Shown: in pieces, positions 23,730 through 30,304 of the stretch
Numbering within the stretch: position 1 is the stretch's first letter
Layout: the number at the start of each line of letters is the position of its first letter
NCBI GenBank assembly: GCA_002841395.1
Contig: PGZM01000001.1
Location: 610,089 to 674,088 of the forward strand
Direction: 5' to 3'
DNA from: Firmicutes bacterium HGW-Firmicutes-9
GTDB lineage: Bacteria > Bacillota > Clostridia > Christensenellales > CAG-138
Length of the DNA: 64,000 nt
Position numbers and translations under genes: made by a program
The notes under the pieces: generated by a model
What the model saw: only the letters and a program-made list of their open reading frames with translations
Told to the model about the DNA's origin: nothing
The model's database searches: none

Positions 23730-25397
23730 TTAGTCGATCGCGGGGAAGGAGATGGTCACCGTGGTGCCGATGCCGATCTTGCTCTGTAGCTGCACCGTGG
23801 CTCCTAGCGTCTCGGCGGAGTGCTTCACGATGGAAAGACCCAGTCCCGTGCCGCTGATCTGCTTGTTGCGGCTGCGGTCCACGCGATAGAATCGCTCAAA
23901 CACGCGGGAAACATGCTCGTCCGAGATGCCGATTCCGGTGTCGGAGACCGAGAGATCCACCCGATTATCCGAGGACTTGAGCGTAACGCCGACGCTGCCG
24001 TTGGACGTATTGTACTTGATCGCGTTATCGACGAGGTTGAGCACGATTTCTTCCAGAATTTTCGGGATTCCGCGCACGCTCAGGTTGGCGCAGTTGACGT
24101 TGAGTGAAACGCCCGCTTTATCCGCCTGCGGCTGCAACCGCTGGCAAACATCTTCGCAAATCTCTTTCAGGTTGACGGTGGTGAATTCCGGTAGGGAAGT
24201 TTTCTCGTCCAGCTGGGAGAGACGGATGATGTCTTCGATCAATGACATGAGTTGAGAAGCCTCCGTGTAGATTTTTCCGGCAAAGCGTTTGGTATCCTCT
24301 GCTTTTGCCACGCCGTCGCGCATGATTTCCGCATAGCCGAGAATCGACGTCAGCGGGGTCTTGAGCTCGTGTGAGACGTTTGCAGAGAACTCACGCCGCA
24401 TTTGCTCCGCAGCAACACGGTCGGAAATATCGAGGATCAGAATGACGGTTCCCGCCTGCGTTTGGCTGCCCGTCACCTGACTTGCCAGCACCTGATAGGT
24501 GCTGGCGCCACGCACGAGCGTTGCCTGACCCGATCCGGCGGTACGCGACTGCTCCAGCGCCTGCTGGAGGGCGACGCTGCGGTTGAGCATCAGCACATGC
24601 GCGCCGACGACCTGGCTGGGCTCCGCGCCGAAGATCTGCGCAGCGCTGCCGTTGATGGCGAGCATGCGGTCGGATGTATCCAGCAGAATGAATCCTTCGC
24701 GCATATTCTCCGTCACGGCGGTAAACTCACGCTGCTTTTCGGAGAGCGCTGCCATGCGGTCTATGATCTCCCGCCGCTGACGCTCCATGCTGGTCAGTAG
24801 CGGCGCAAGCTCGTCATAGGCGACGTTGCCGAGCGGGTTCTCAAGATCCAGCGCGTTGATGGGCTGCACGATGGTCTTTGCGGCAAAGCGGGCAAATAGC
24901 GCGGAAATCACGATGATCGCGAAGAACACGGCAAGCATGGTCGGCAGCAGGGTTCCAATCATGCCGAGCACGCTCTTTTGACTGCTCGCGACGCGCAGCA
25001 CGCGCCCATCGGGAAGCAATCTTGCGTAGTAAAAATTCTTGATCAGCTGCGTTTCGGAAAAGCGGCTGCTGGTTCCAATACCGATGGATTTCGCTTCCGC
25101 GACCTCCGGACGATCCGAATGGTTGTCCAGCTTGGTTGTATCGGAAGAGTTATCGAATAGTACCGTTCCGTCCGCGTCGATCAGTGTCAACCGGCTGGTG
25201 GAAGGCAGGCTTGATAGATAGGTGTTTTCGTCTACGGCGGAATCAAGTCCGCTCTGGACATATCTGCTTTCCGAGGCAAGTTCCGAGAAAACGAGATTCT
25301 CGAAAATACTATATTGCGCGAGCAGTACGACACCGCCGAGGAGCAGCGCCGCAATCAGCGAGGAGAGGAAGATGTTCCAAAATATCCGTTTTCTCAT
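23730..25397 (-). CDS. phoR: PhoR-type phosphate sensor histidine kinase
   Basis: A 555-residue kinase: membrane helix 1 (about 9-29), an extracytoplasmic domain (about 30-145), helix 2 (about 146-170), a PAS domain (about 220-320), HisKA (N-V-S-H-E-L-K-T-P-L-T near 345) and HATPase_c (N-L-V-D-N-A-I-K near 455, G-T-G-L-G-L-S-I near 517). It is the last gene of the minus-strand Pho cluster, directly downstream of phoP. It would phosphorylate PhoP under phosphate limitation, with PhoU and the Pst transporter as sensors. Confidence 0.92.
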   Translation of the reverse strand: MRKRIFWNIFLSSLIAALLLGGVVLLAQYSIFENLVFSELASESRYVQSGLDSAVDENTYLSSLPSTSRLTLIDADGTVLFDNSSDTTKLDNHSDRPEVAEAKSIGIGTSSRFSETQLIKNFYYARLLPDGRVLRVASSQKSVLGMIGTLLPTMLAVFFAIIVISALFARFAAKTIVQPINALDLENPLGNVAYDELAPLLTSMERQRREIIDRMAALSEKQREFTAVTENMREGFILLDTSDRMLAINGSAAQIFGAEPSQVVGAHVLMLNRSVALQQALEQSRTAGSGQATLVRGASTYQVLASQVTGSQTQAGTVILILDISDRVAAEQMRREFSANVSHELKTPLTSILGYAEIMRDGVAKAEDTKRFAGKIYTEASQLMSLIEDIIRLSQLDEKTSLPEFTTVNLKEICEDVCQRLQPQADKAGVSLNVNCANLSVRGIPKILEEIVLNLVDNAIKYNTSNGSVGVTLKSSDNRVDLSVSDTGIGISDEHVSRVFERFYRVDRSRNKQISGTGLGLSIVKHSAETLGATVQLQSKIGIGTTVTISFPAID

Positions 25398-25469: not shown

Positions 25470-26134
<665 letters not shown>

Positions 26135-26138
<4 letters not shown>

Positions 26139-26788
26139 ATTTCGGCACCCTTATGCACGCCGGTGATCGAGAACTCCGCCCACTCGGCGATGTTCTGCGC
26201 GTGGTCGCCGATGCGTTCGAAGTACTTCGCGATCATCAGCAGGTCGATCGCCTGCTCACCGTTGTCGGGGTCTTTGCGGATCAGGTCGATTAGCTCGCCC
26301 TTGATCGTATCAAACAAATCGTCGATGATATCGTCCATCGCGATGATGTCGCGCGCGAGCGTGAGATCCTTGTTGATGAAAGCGTCGATGCTTCCGGACA
26401 CCATTCGGATGGAAGCCTCCGCCATCTGCGGCAGATGCTCCAGAGACTTGATGTACGGTTTTCCGGCAAGATAGATCACGATGCCGGAGATATCCGAGGC
26501 CTGGTCGCCGATGCGCTCCATGTCCGTAATCATCTTGAGCGCCGCCGAGATCAGGCGAAGGTCCCGCGCCACGGGCTGCTGCTGCAAAAGAAGCTTGAGG
26601 CAGAGCGATTCGATGTCGCGCTCTTTCTGGTCCACTTCGCGGTCAAAGGTGATCGCGTGATTCGCGGCCTCGACGTCCTGCCGGATCAGCGCTTCGCTGG
26701 CGGATTGAATCGCGTGCTCGATCAGTGCGCCCATTTCGAGCAGCTCCTGATTTAAAAGCCGCAGCTGTTCTTCAAATGTGTTTCGCAT
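26135..26788 (-). CDS. phoU: Phosphate transport regulator PhoU
   Basis: A 217-residue all-helical protein with two three-helix PhoU repeats. It carries the family's metal-binding patterns (E-R-I-G-D-Q-A near 91 and E-R-I-G-D-H-A-Q-N near 191). PhoU keeps PhoR in the off state when phosphate is plentiful and restrains Pst uptake. It abuts pstB (1-base overlap) and overlaps phoP, indicating tight translational coupling. Confidence 0.95.
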
Positions 26789-27540
26789 TAACCGAACCTC
26801 CCCGTAATATAATCTTCTGTGCGTTTGTCGCGCGGGATGCTGAATAGCTTTTCGGTGTTTCCGTACTCGATGATCTCACCGAGCAGGAAGAAGGCTGTGT
26901 TGTCGGAGATGCGAGCCGCCTGCTGCATGTTGTGCGTTACGATGATTATAGTATATTTTTCCCGCAACGTCACGCAAAGGTCCTCGATTCTGCTGGTTGA
27001 AATCGGGTCGAGCGCGCTGGTGGGTTCGTCCATCAGCACGACTTCCGGCTCAACGGCGAGCGCGCGCGCGATACAGAGACGCTGCTGCTGTCCGCCGGAG
27101 AGACCGAGCGCATCCTTGCGGAGGCGATCCTTGAGCTCATCCCAAATCGCCGCATCCCGCAGGGAGCGCTCTACGATGTCGTCAAGCTTGGCTTTGCCGC
27201 GCACGCCGTGTGTGCGGGGGCCGTAAGCGACATTGTCGTAAACGGTCATGGGGAAGGGGTTCGGTTTTTGAAACACCATGCCGACGCGTTTGCGCAGAAC
27301 GGTGGTATCCATGCTTGGAGCATAGATGTCCTGCCCGTCGAGCAGCACCTTTCCGGTGATCACACAGCCTTCCACGAGGTCGTTCATGCGATTCAGGGAA
27401 CGAAGCAGCGTGCTTTTTCCGCAGCCGCTGGGGCCGATGAAGGCTGTGATCTGACGCTCCGGAATCTGCAACTCTACATTTTTCAGCGCTTGCAGCTGTC
27501 CGTAAAACAGGTCTAGATTGGAAATATCAAACTTGTTCAT
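26788..27540 (-). CDS. pstB: Phosphate ABC transporter ATP-binding protein PstB
   Basis: A 250-residue ABC ATPase: Walker [10 protein letters not shown] near 33, signature L-S-G-G-Q-Q-Q-R near 148, Walker B V-V-L-M-D-E-P near 167, and the PstB-type D-N-V-A-Y-G-P-R motif near 103. It powers high-affinity phosphate import with PstC and PstA. An 83-base gap carrying a direct repeat separates it from pstA, whereas the other genes overlap. Confidence 0.97.
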
Positions 27541-27623: not shown

Positions 27624-28454
27624 CTATATCTTGCGGCGGGTGACGCGCTTAGCAACCATAGCGGAGAGCGCATTGATTCCGACGACGATGACGAGCAGAA
27701 CAACCGCGGTGGCGTAGGTCTGGTTGATGTAGAGACCCTCCTGCGAGAGTGCATACATATGTACCGAGAGCGTGCGCGCAGAGTCCATGATGCCGGAGAC
27801 GGTGTCGGAAGAGGTGCCCGCGGTATACAGAAGCGCGGCGGTTTCGCCGACCGTACGGCCTACCCCAAGGATCACGCCCGCGAGAATGCCGGGGATTGCA
27901 TCCGGCAGCACTACGCGGAATACCGTGCGCAGGCGTCCGGCGCCGAGGCCGAAGCTCCCTTCGCGAAAGCTGTCCGGCACGCTCATCAGCGCTTCTTCCG
28001 ATGTTCGGAGGATGACCGGCAGGATCATGATGGAGATCGTCAGCGCTCCCGAGAGCATCGAAAAGCCGAGCTTGAGCGCGGTGACGAAGAACAGCATGCC
28101 GAAGAGTCCGTACACGATTGAGGGGATGCCCGCAAGCGTTTCCGCGTTCATACGGATCAAGCGGACAAGCTTGCTGCCGCGCTTTGCGTACTCGACCAGA
28201 TAGATTGCGGCAAACACGCCCAGCGGAACCGCGATCAGCAGCGAGAGCGCCGTCATGAGGATCGTGTTGAGCAGCGCGGGCAGAAGCGAGAGGTTATCCG
28301 TGGTATACTTCCACTCAAATAGTTTCCAAGAGAGGTTCGGTACGCCTTTCACCAGAACATACCCTGCCACAAACAGCAGCGCGCCGATGGTGATAATGGT
28401 TGCAAGATAAACCGAAAGGCGGAGGAGAAGCGCAGAAATTTTTTGACGTTTCAT
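27624..28454 (-). CDS. pstA: Phosphate ABC transporter permease PstA
   Basis: A 276-residue permease with six predicted helices. The conserved EAA-type loop includes R-E-G-S-F-G-L-G-A-G near 178-187, and G-V-G-R-T-V-G-E-T-A-A near 216. It forms the membrane channel with PstC. It overlaps pstC by 4 bases. Confidence 0.95.
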   Translation of the reverse strand: MKRQKISALLLRLSVYLATIITIGALLFVAGYVLVKGVPNLSWKLFEWKYTTDNLSLLPALLNTILMTALSLLIAVPLGVFAAIYLVEYAKRGSKLVRLIRMNAETLAGIPSIVYGLFGMLFFVTALKLGFSMLSGALTISIMILPVILRTSEEALMSVPDSFREGSFGLGAGRLRTVFRVVLPDAIPGILAGVILGVGRTVGETAALLYTAGTSSDTVSGIMDSARTLSVHMYALSQEGLYINQTYATAVVLLVIVVGINALSAMVAKRVTRRKI

Positions 28455-29332
28455 GCTTTATTCCCCCGTTTCGTAAGTGAGAAGAGAAAGTTGATGATTA
28501 AGATGAAGACAAATAGCACAACCGCGGTGGCGATCAGCGCCTCACGATGCAGATCGGCTGAGTAGCCCATCTCCATAACGATGTTGGTCGTGAGGGTTCG
28601 AAGACCCTTCATGATGCCCTGCGGCATGCGCGGCTGATTGCCCGCGACCATGATGACCGCCATGGCTTCGCCGATCGCGCGACCGACACCGAGGATTACG
28701 GCGGCAGTCACGCCGCTCTTTGCGGCAGGCAGAATGATCGAGAAGACTGAACGCTCGTGGGTCGCGCCAAGAGCGAGCGAGCCTTCATAATAGGACGATT
28801 CTACCGCGTTCAGCGAGCTTTCCGATACCGTGATGACCGTAGGAAGGATCATGATGGCTAACACGATGCTCGCAGCGAGCATGCTGCCGCGTCCGCCAAG
28901 CAGCGGGACGATGACGACTAAGCCGAAGAAGCCGTAGACGACGGACGGAATGCCCGCGAGAAGCTGTACGGCGGGTTTTAAATAGCTGACCAGCTTCTTG
29001 CTCGCAAAGCGGGAGAGGAAGATCGCCGTCAATACACCGACGGGAACGCCAAGCACCAGCGCACCTGCGGTGACATAGAGACTGCCGAGAATCATCGGCA
29101 GTATGCCGTAGATGTCGTTACCGGGCTTCCAGACGGTGCCGAAGAGAAATTTGAATACGCCGATTTCCGCGATGGCGGGTACACCGCTGACCAGGAGGAA
29201 TACCGTGATCAGCAGAACCGCAAGTATACTGACGCAGGCAGCGGCGAGAAATAGGATTCTCGCCGCGCCTTCGCGTACTTGGTTATTTCGTCCCGCGGCG
29301 GTTTCTCGCGTAAGGGATTTTTTGTTACTCAT
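28451..29332 (-). CDS. pstC: Phosphate ABC transporter permease PstC
   Basis: A 293-residue permease with six helices plus a basic N-terminal tail. The EAA loop region reads Y-Y-E-G-S-L-A-L-G-A-T near 183, followed by G-V-G-R-A-I-G-E-A-M-A near 220. It partners PstA. The start lies 27 bases after pstS, so substrate-binding protein and channel are co-transcribed. Confidence 0.95.
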   Translation of the reverse strand: MSNKKSLTRETAAGRNNQVREGAARILFLAAACVSILAVLLITVFLLVSGVPAIAEIGVFKFLFGTVWKPGNDIYGILPMILGSLYVTAGALVLGVPVGVLTAIFLSRFASKKLVSYLKPAVQLLAGIPSVVYGFFGLVVIVPLLGGRGSMLAASIVLAIMILPTVITVSESSLNAVESSYYEGSLALGATHERSVFSIILPAAKSGVTAAVILGVGRAIGEAMAVIMVAGNQPRMPQGIMKGLRTLTTNIVMEMGYSADLHREALIATAVVLFVFILIINFLFSLTKRGNKA

Positions 29333-29359: not shown

Positions 29360-30304
29360 TTATTTCACTTCTGCCCAGTTGAGCAGTTCGCCGACGTAGA
29401 TCTGGCGGACCTGTTCGATGGAGAGGCCGGAGATCGGGTTGTCGTTGTTGACGATGATCGCGATACCGTCGATTGCGATGACGGTCGGGGTCACGCCGGC
29501 GGAGAGTTCGCTGTCCTTGAGTTCGCGGGACGCCATGCCGATGTCGCAGTTGCCTTCGATTGCCATCTTGACGCCGGTGCTGGAGTCGCTCAGCTGGATT
29601 TCGATTTCAGCGTTGGGGTTGAGGGCCATATAGGCTTCTTTCAGCTTCTCCATGACCGGGGTGACGGAGGAGCTTCCCGCGACGACGACCTTACCGGCGA
29701 CGGTGCTGCCAGCAAAGGCGGGGGCGTTGTCAACGCTCGCGATGTACTTGTTATCCTGGATGACAGCCTGGCCTTCTGCGCTGAGGATGAAGTCGATGAA
29801 CGCCTGCGCTGCTTCGGAAACGGTTGCCTGGGTCGCGATGTTGAACGGACGGGCTACTTTGTACGCGCCGCTCTTGATGTTCTCAACGTTCGCATCCGCG
29901 CCGTCGATCTGGACGGCTTTGACGGTGTCGTTCAGAGAGCCGAGGGAGATGTAGCCGATACCGGCGACGTTGCCCGCAACGGTCTGGAGGACGACGGAGG
30001 TGCTGTTGACGATTTCGGCATCCAGCGTGGTGTAGTCCACTTTTTTGCCGTCGGCGTCTTTCTGTTCTACGCCGGTGAGTTCGATGAACGCGCCGCGGGT
30101 GCCGCTGCCATCTTCACGGGATACGACGACGATGTCTTCTTCCAGGGCGGCTGCGGGAGCGGGGGCCGCATCCATAGCGGGGGCTTCGGTTGCTTCCATT
30201 GCGGGAGCTTCGATCGCCTCGGGCGCGGCGGGTGTGGTGGCGCAAGCCGCAAGGCCGGCTACCATGGTCAGTGCGATCAGTGTCGCAAGCAGTTTCTTCA
30301 TCAT
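29360..30304 (-). CDS. pstS: Phosphate-binding lipoprotein PstS with circularly permuted domain order
   Basis: A 314-residue lipoprotein from the ATG at 30304 (GGAGAAACG upstream; longer in-frame starts lack a site). The signal ends in L-A-A-C (Cys21) and an Ala/Pro/Glu linker follows (22-56). The fold segments are in unusual order. The block that normally forms the second half of PstS comes first: S-R-E-D-G-S-G-T-R at 62-70, then G-I-G-Y-I-S-L-G-S near 115 and F-I-D-F-I-L-S-A-E-G-Q near 169. The normal N-terminal half follows: V-A-G-S-S-S-V-T-P at 208-216, D-I-G-M-A-S-R-E-L near 254, I-Y-V-G-E-L-L-N-W at 302-310, and then the stop. All phosphate-binding motifs remain. Identity as PstS is supported by the pst operon. 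Confidence 0.88.
   Translation of the reverse strand: MMKKLLATLIALTMVAGLAACATTPAAPEAIEAPAMEATEAPAMDAAPAPAAALEEDIVVVSREDGSGTRGAFIELTGVEQKDADGKKVDYTTLDAEIVNSTSVVLQTVAGNVAGIGYISLGSLNDTVKAVQIDGADANVENIKSGAYKVARPFNIATQATVSEAAQAFIDFILSAEGQAVIQDNKYIASVDNAPAFAGSTVAGKVVVAGSSSVTPVMEKLKEAYMALNPNAEIEIQLSDSSTGVKMAIEGNCDIGMASRELKDSELSAGVTPTVIAIDGIAIIVNNDNPISGLSIEQVRQIYVGELLNWAEVK

Follow-up and report, generated by a model that had tools for sequence, protein, structure and literature searches.

The pstS gene in a 64,000-nucleotide (nt) stretch of the genome of Firmicutes bacterium HGW-Firmicutes-9 (contig PGZM01000001.1) encodes a PstS phosphate-binding protein whose two halves stand in swapped order. We call the whole stretch the window, and coordinates are window positions unless a locus or contig is named. 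Sequence and a predicted model support circular permutation as the best reading, because the halves are each present once and swapped, the phosphate-binding motifs are kept, and the model has the fold of crystal structure 4H1X. Overall, the product is very probably a circularly permuted PstS, predicted to be a lipoprotein and likely to form a two-lobed clamp, that would feed the PstC–PstA–PstB importer. What is unusual is the order of the halves, not the fold, the ligand class, or the operon, and a structure with this order was released in 2012. The natural permutation extends through an entire branch of this core nutrient receptor; its unpermuted relatives coexist with it, and tandem forms show a possible origin. 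The branch opens to testing the question of whether it matters which lobe bears the membrane anchor. There is also a practical consequence: the curated model for the family splits this protein and scores it below its cut-off.

The gene is a checked open reading frame at 29360..30304 on the minus strand, with its ATG at 30304 (a Shine-Dalgarno-like AGGAG lies 5′ of it), its stop at 29360, and a product of 314 residues; all its parts listed here are on the same strand. As read from the sequence, residues 1–21 (30242..30304) form a signal peptide with the lipobox L-A-A-C and a predicted lipid anchor at Cys21; a simple lipobox pattern is present in 107 of 119 permuted open frames. An Ala/Pro/Glu-rich tether follows (residues 22–56, 30137..30241), for which the AlphaFold2 model has low confidence, with predicted local distance difference test (pLDDT) values mostly below 50 through residue 49. 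The folded part, residues 57–314, starts with the canonical second half (residues 57–190, 29735..30136), which contains the motif SREDGSGTR (62–70, 30095..30121). It continues through the join of the old C-terminus to the old N-terminus (residues 191–203, 29696..29734, from the limits of the half-matches) and ends with the canonical first half (residues 204–314, 29363..29695), which contains VAGSSSVTP (208–216, 29657..29683). Both halves are assigned from profile matches, structure-sequence matches, and a rotation scan. By homology, we take the two motifs to be the phosphate-binding loops; these loops are invariant or nearly so in 57 relatives. A preliminary description of this DNA, made from the sequence alone, had placed the motifs at these residues with the second block first and stated that all binding motifs survive; the reading frame bears out the positions and order, and both motifs are retained. 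The linker that it put at about 192–203 is indeed the join, although its limits are better given as about 191–203.

PstS homology spans both halves of the product, with the binding motifs kept. With the family profile TIGR02136 the product aligns in two stretches, of which protein residues 194–313 against profile positions 29–155 of 295 score best. The genome search gave the profile order as reversed in the gene, the stretch matching positions 162–294 lying upstream of that matching 29–162. The score for PF12849 is 115.8, above its cut-off of 27. Weighing against membership in the family, the whole-protein TIGR02136 score is 182.9 bits, below the curated cut-off of 206.6, which leaves the product outside the canonical-order TIGR02136 members; we attribute the shortfall to the splitting of the match. 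The solved canonical PstS structures 4q8r, 4gd5, and 1twy each align in two blocks whose order is exchanged (the front of 4q8r aligns with residues 205–313, and its back with 57–185). The product is colinear with 4h1x, residues 57–314 aligning with 10–265 (E 2.6e-63). We also rotated the core in steps of two residues and aligned each rotation locally with nine canonical PstS sequences (eight from scanned loci, plus 4q8r). Rotation lifts the scores from 241–299 for the protein as it is to 465–558, while shuffled controls (20 per case) never exceed 70, in keeping with the preliminary view of circular permutation as the simplest reading. The best rotation starts at residues 183–193, starts within 5 points of the best cover 181–209, and identity to the nine sequences after rotation is 43–50%. 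Against 4h1x the unrotated order scores best, and no rotation improves it. In the sequence each segment occurs once, the cyclic order is kept, and the old termini are joined; the same fold is found in the predicted model.

PstS presumably has a type II fold, and the model makes the usual two-lobed clamp likely for the permuted form. Structure prediction was among the checks that the preliminary description proposed; the AlphaFold2 model superposes on 4H1X, which is SP_2084 of Streptococcus pneumoniae, over 257 of 257 residues at 1.2 Å, whereas the three best canonical PstS structures match it over about half only. HisG, LysR-type domains, and OppA/NikA also gave full-length structural matches; we dismissed kinship and read them as pseudo-symmetry general to two-lobed proteins. 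In the model a 15-residue strand (272–286) is the likely first lobe crossing and strand 151–158 the likely second, and the rigid match of canonical 4pqj to the model stops at 280. In Escherichia coli PstS the lobe limits are close to residues 75 and 246, and the proposed crossings would be consistent with them. The new termini (57 and 314) would then lie inside lobe II, between helix 296–304 and strand 59–63, and not at the hinge, where the protein had originally been said to end. It counts against this placement that the positions of lobes and hinge were drawn from secondary structure, aligned ranges, and the E. coli domain limits.

With the cut inside lobe II, lobe I, which is split in canonical PstS, would become one continuous stretch (∼155–276, new join included), and lobe II would now carry both termini plus the lipid anchor. 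Each lobe would open with a strand that leads to an anion-binding loop (VVV-SREDGSGTR in one, VVV-AGSSSVTP in the other), so permutation by half a turn would let the lobes trade roles and leave the fold unbroken. In canonical PstS the loop where the cut falls is of variable length: the gap between half-matches is 5–8 residues in 30 of 53 canonical frames and 24–43 residues in the other 23, a count in which two genes appear twice (L129/L169 and L130/L170).

The nearest known counterpart, PDB 4H1X (PstS 2 of S. pneumoniae TIGR4, released 2012), shares the permuted order throughout the folded part at 46% identity and differs by organism. The permuted form was therefore structurally solved by 2012, and colinear order and tree grouping place our protein with this SP_2084/4H1X type. 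In open-access literature we found no paper naming 4H1X and none on a Pst complex structure. Among the matches listed there was no description of a permuted PstS or TupA either (most subscription journals being outside that scope), which agrees with the preliminary remark that no description of the permutation was known. Canonical TIGR02136-type proteins such as 4Q8R (Clostridium perfringens) and 4GD5 have the same motifs, but their halves are in the opposite order, without a join of old termini, and their ends and anchor are located elsewhere. The ‘Type Ic’ ligand-binding protein TpMglB-2 (Tp0684) of Treponema pallidum is described as naturally circularly permuted (PMC4990184). It too is a tethered, permuted binding protein, likely of an ATP-binding cassette (ABC) importer, and its authors also discuss tethering; it differs in its sugar-binding Type I fold, its family, and its cut site (PMC4990184). 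The sequence and best fold match of our protein are PstS, which may set it apart from Type Ic. A glycine-betaine/molybdate-binding permutation family that includes 2b4l (OpuAC) is reported with CPSARST (PMC2395249); this is a fold-level relation at <24% identity, unlike the re-ordering of a member within a single family that keeps its ligand and operon. PMC10601554 mentions a ribose-binding protein permuted by engineering, and the CIRPIN paper (PMC12667903) does not mention PstS or phosphate.

Permuted PstS is widespread in Clostridia. We scanned genomes for relatives and took the best 80 of 473 confirmed stretches, a set that gives no frequency because it is ranked by similarity to a permuted query. 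All 80 loci, some from isolates, have a frame with the second half before the first, and the order is also kept in all 120 relatives listed, likewise ranked by similarity to a permuted query. In 77 of the 80, pstC starts within 500 nt downstream. Hosts among the named loci are mainly Lachnospiraceae, Oscillospiraceae, and other Clostridia. The survey of Clostridia that the preliminary description had proposed finds both halves matched in permuted order in no fewer than 72 of the 391 genomes sampled from the class (counted by hand), with a cut match in three further genomes among the matches listed (G460, G631, and G558). The best 30 class matches, when fetched, all had the permuted order. Within a 99-genome class sample, 20 genomes have a full permuted match (that of G460 is cut), 16 of them without any other profile match. 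In a sample of the phylum, where up to five candidates per genome were scored, at least 14 of 398 genomes encode a permuted PstS. The preliminary mention of similar proteins in gut Clostridia is too narrow: pneumococcal SP_2084 is permuted as well, and so is a PstS from Flexilinea flocculi (Chloroflexota; L059 5929-6801, +), for which no pstC was found in the fetched flank. Another was seen in a metagenome-assembled genome labelled Gordonibacter (Actinomycetota; L080 5902-6918, +). These two are likely transfers or mislabellings, because they are nested among Clostridia. Four loci (L019, L030, L039, and L081) have two permuted pstS-like frames each, adjacent in L030 and L081; one of those in L019 (2782-3591) is divergent, with a weak first half. 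The names given to relatives vary, some being only ‘substrate-binding domain-containing protein’ or ‘extracellular solute-binding protein’ and others phosphate transport proteins.

Permuted PstS shares one cut site across its distribution. The join is 11–14 residues in 114 of 119 permuted frames, and the tail past the last half 0–3 residues in 108 of 119 (112 and 106 of 117 without two repeat fetches of the window’s gene). For a first tree the halves were put in one order and 115 of 179 rows used, with L002, L003, L004, L115, and L150 omitted and near-copies thinned; all 69 permuted rows fall on one side of a branch (Shimodaira–Hasegawa-like approximate likelihood ratio test, SH-aLRT, 91). A more careful tree used 55 rows (26 of the 69 permuted, 25 of 42 canonical, and 4 of 4 tandem), dropping five long or odd rows (permuted L039_1454 and canonical L152–L155) and most canonical rows with long inserts. 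Here 23 permuted rows, including 4h1x and the window’s protein, group with support 98/90, within an open fork (93/92) that also holds L151, the pair L128/L156, and canonical L164. The approximately unbiased (AU) test does not reject one permuted clade (p 0.495), and a single origin is likely, though not proven; the permuted branch would have arisen once and then spread through Clostridia and relatives. Other results of the careful tree weigh against a single event: the permuted label needs two changes because canonical L164 is placed with the deepest permuted rows, and a single change suffices in only 1% of 200 bootstrap trees, so there may have been two origins or a reversion. More broadly, several independent permutations could have hit the same loop if the fold tolerates new ends there. 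The variable length of that loop in canonical PstS, the divergence of the deepest permuted rows (L128, L151, and L156) with a canonical row nested among them, and the independent permutation of a TupA-like protein in the same genome all fit this alternative. We nevertheless consider it rather unlikely, given the near-constant join length and end point, the first-tree split, the well-supported 23-row group, and the AU result.

Tandem duplication followed by loss is a usual route to circular permutation: pstS would have duplicated in frame in tandem and then lost the outer halves. The preliminary description had listed such a history as something that would refute permutation; tandem forms do exist, but such a history, being a usual route to permutation, is no rival to it. 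Writing N and C for the canonical first and second halves, a tandem-protein query listed 120 relatives, comprising 15 N-C-N-C, 5 (N-C)x3, 88 canonical, 3 permuted, and 9 three-half proteins. In-frame tandem or triple canonical PstS were seen at L126 1105-2697 (−) and L127 1105-2736 (−), and in P0121–P0138, P0142, and P0150. These fusions are very likely real, because four of them, two tandem (P0122 and P0137) and two triple (P0127 and P0128), are on contigs of 1.6–3.8 Mb; each of the four contains a C-N unit. The tree placement of such proteins, which covers L126 and L127, rules these two out as direct ancestors: they group with canonical rows, and a joint clade with permuted rows is rejected (p 0.00012). 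The tested tandems being outside the permuted branch, which tells against this route, duplication is a possible path and not shown to be the one taken.

Fission into half genes and their fusion in the other order would yield the same final arrangement as duplication and loss, and we think it quite improbable. We met no free-standing half-PstS gene, a weak negative as the loci were chosen by similarity to whole PstS, and one half stands alone in only 2 of 176 half-match frames, one a full canonical match (L094) and the other the divergent permuted frame of L019. The tandem and triple proteins, four of them on long contigs, also speak for duplication over fission.

In the three-half proteins the inner halves resemble permuted PstS and an outer half resembles the canonical form; they are arranged as C-N-C (P0143, P0144, P0145, P0174, and P0218) or N-C-N (P0147, P0164, P0169, and P0208). 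P0143 and P0145 are identical over residues 1–256 and then diverge, P0143 250–355 differs from P0147 142–247 by one residue, and P0164 and P0169 have an exact 138-residue block in common; P0144, P0174, P0208, and P0218 have no such common block longer than 26 residues. This suggests that, for the five block-sharing proteins, chimeric contigs or paralog recombination fit as well as ancestry, and we set all nine aside as candidate frozen intermediates. No C-N-C match was seen among those listed for the 391 genomes, and the three long open frames inspected, in G646, G535, and G664, proved to contain ordinary PstS frames, 295, 310, and 403 residues long.

The permuted pstS heads a cluster on the minus strand in the order pstS-pstC-pstA-pstB-phoU, followed by a PhoB/PhoR-like pair. 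The permease genes pstC (28451..29332; TIGR02138, 270.4 bits, cut-off 196.45) and pstA (27624..28454; TIGR00974, 273.2 bits, cut-off 193.45), the ATPase gene pstB (26788..27540; TIGR00972, 416.7 bits, cut-off 343.2), and phoU (26135..26788; TIGR02135, 210.2 bits, cut-off 130.25) all score above their cut-offs. The PhoB-like response regulator (25470..26138; TIGR02154, 230.5 bits, cut-off 296.2) and the PhoR/PnpS-like sensor kinase (23730..25397; NF046044, 307.6 bits, cut-off 400) score below theirs. Permuted PstS would capture phosphate outside the membrane and pass it to the PstC–PstA–PstB importer encoded directly 3′. Searches of the window’s genome with TIGR02136 and PF12849 detected no second PstS; on the other side, a second pstS could be missing because the genome is 92% complete. 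That the protein has left phosphate uptake to become a sensor or a binder of another oxyanion would accord with its sub-threshold family score and with the other oxyanion-binding proteins of the genome. It is nonetheless very improbable for the only PstS detected, at the head of a pst-pho cluster, with binding loops so well kept among relatives. An assembly or annotation artefact, conceivable if the family is prone to chimeras of the kind that the nine three-half proteins from metagenome contigs resemble, is rejected for the permuted form, whose order recurs in all listed relatives, in all 80 loci, isolates included, and in a crystal structure.

The same genome encodes a second circularly permuted binding protein, TupA-like and tungstate-binding by similarity, with a cut site that differs from that of PstS (L172 943-2100, +; G000:C14:30328-31380). 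Genes for a TupB-like permease and an ABC ATPase follow it, and the same permuted order is found in G433 (L206). When permuted PstS and permuted TupA are compared by profile, only 29 columns align. It is possible, at somewhat less than even chances, that tethered oxyanion-binding proteins have repeatedly been re-cut by permutation: PstS and TupA would have two cut sites, joins of about a dozen residues linking old C- to old N-terminus, and lobe I continuous in both, with the pull of the lipid anchor on the clamp moved. A molybdate-type binding protein of the same genome (G000:C4:86978-87694; L225) has the canonical order by PF13531, unlike PstS and TupA. Near the permuted TupA-like gene of G433 lies a radical S-adenosylmethionine (SAM) MoaA-like gene (L206 2994-3872).
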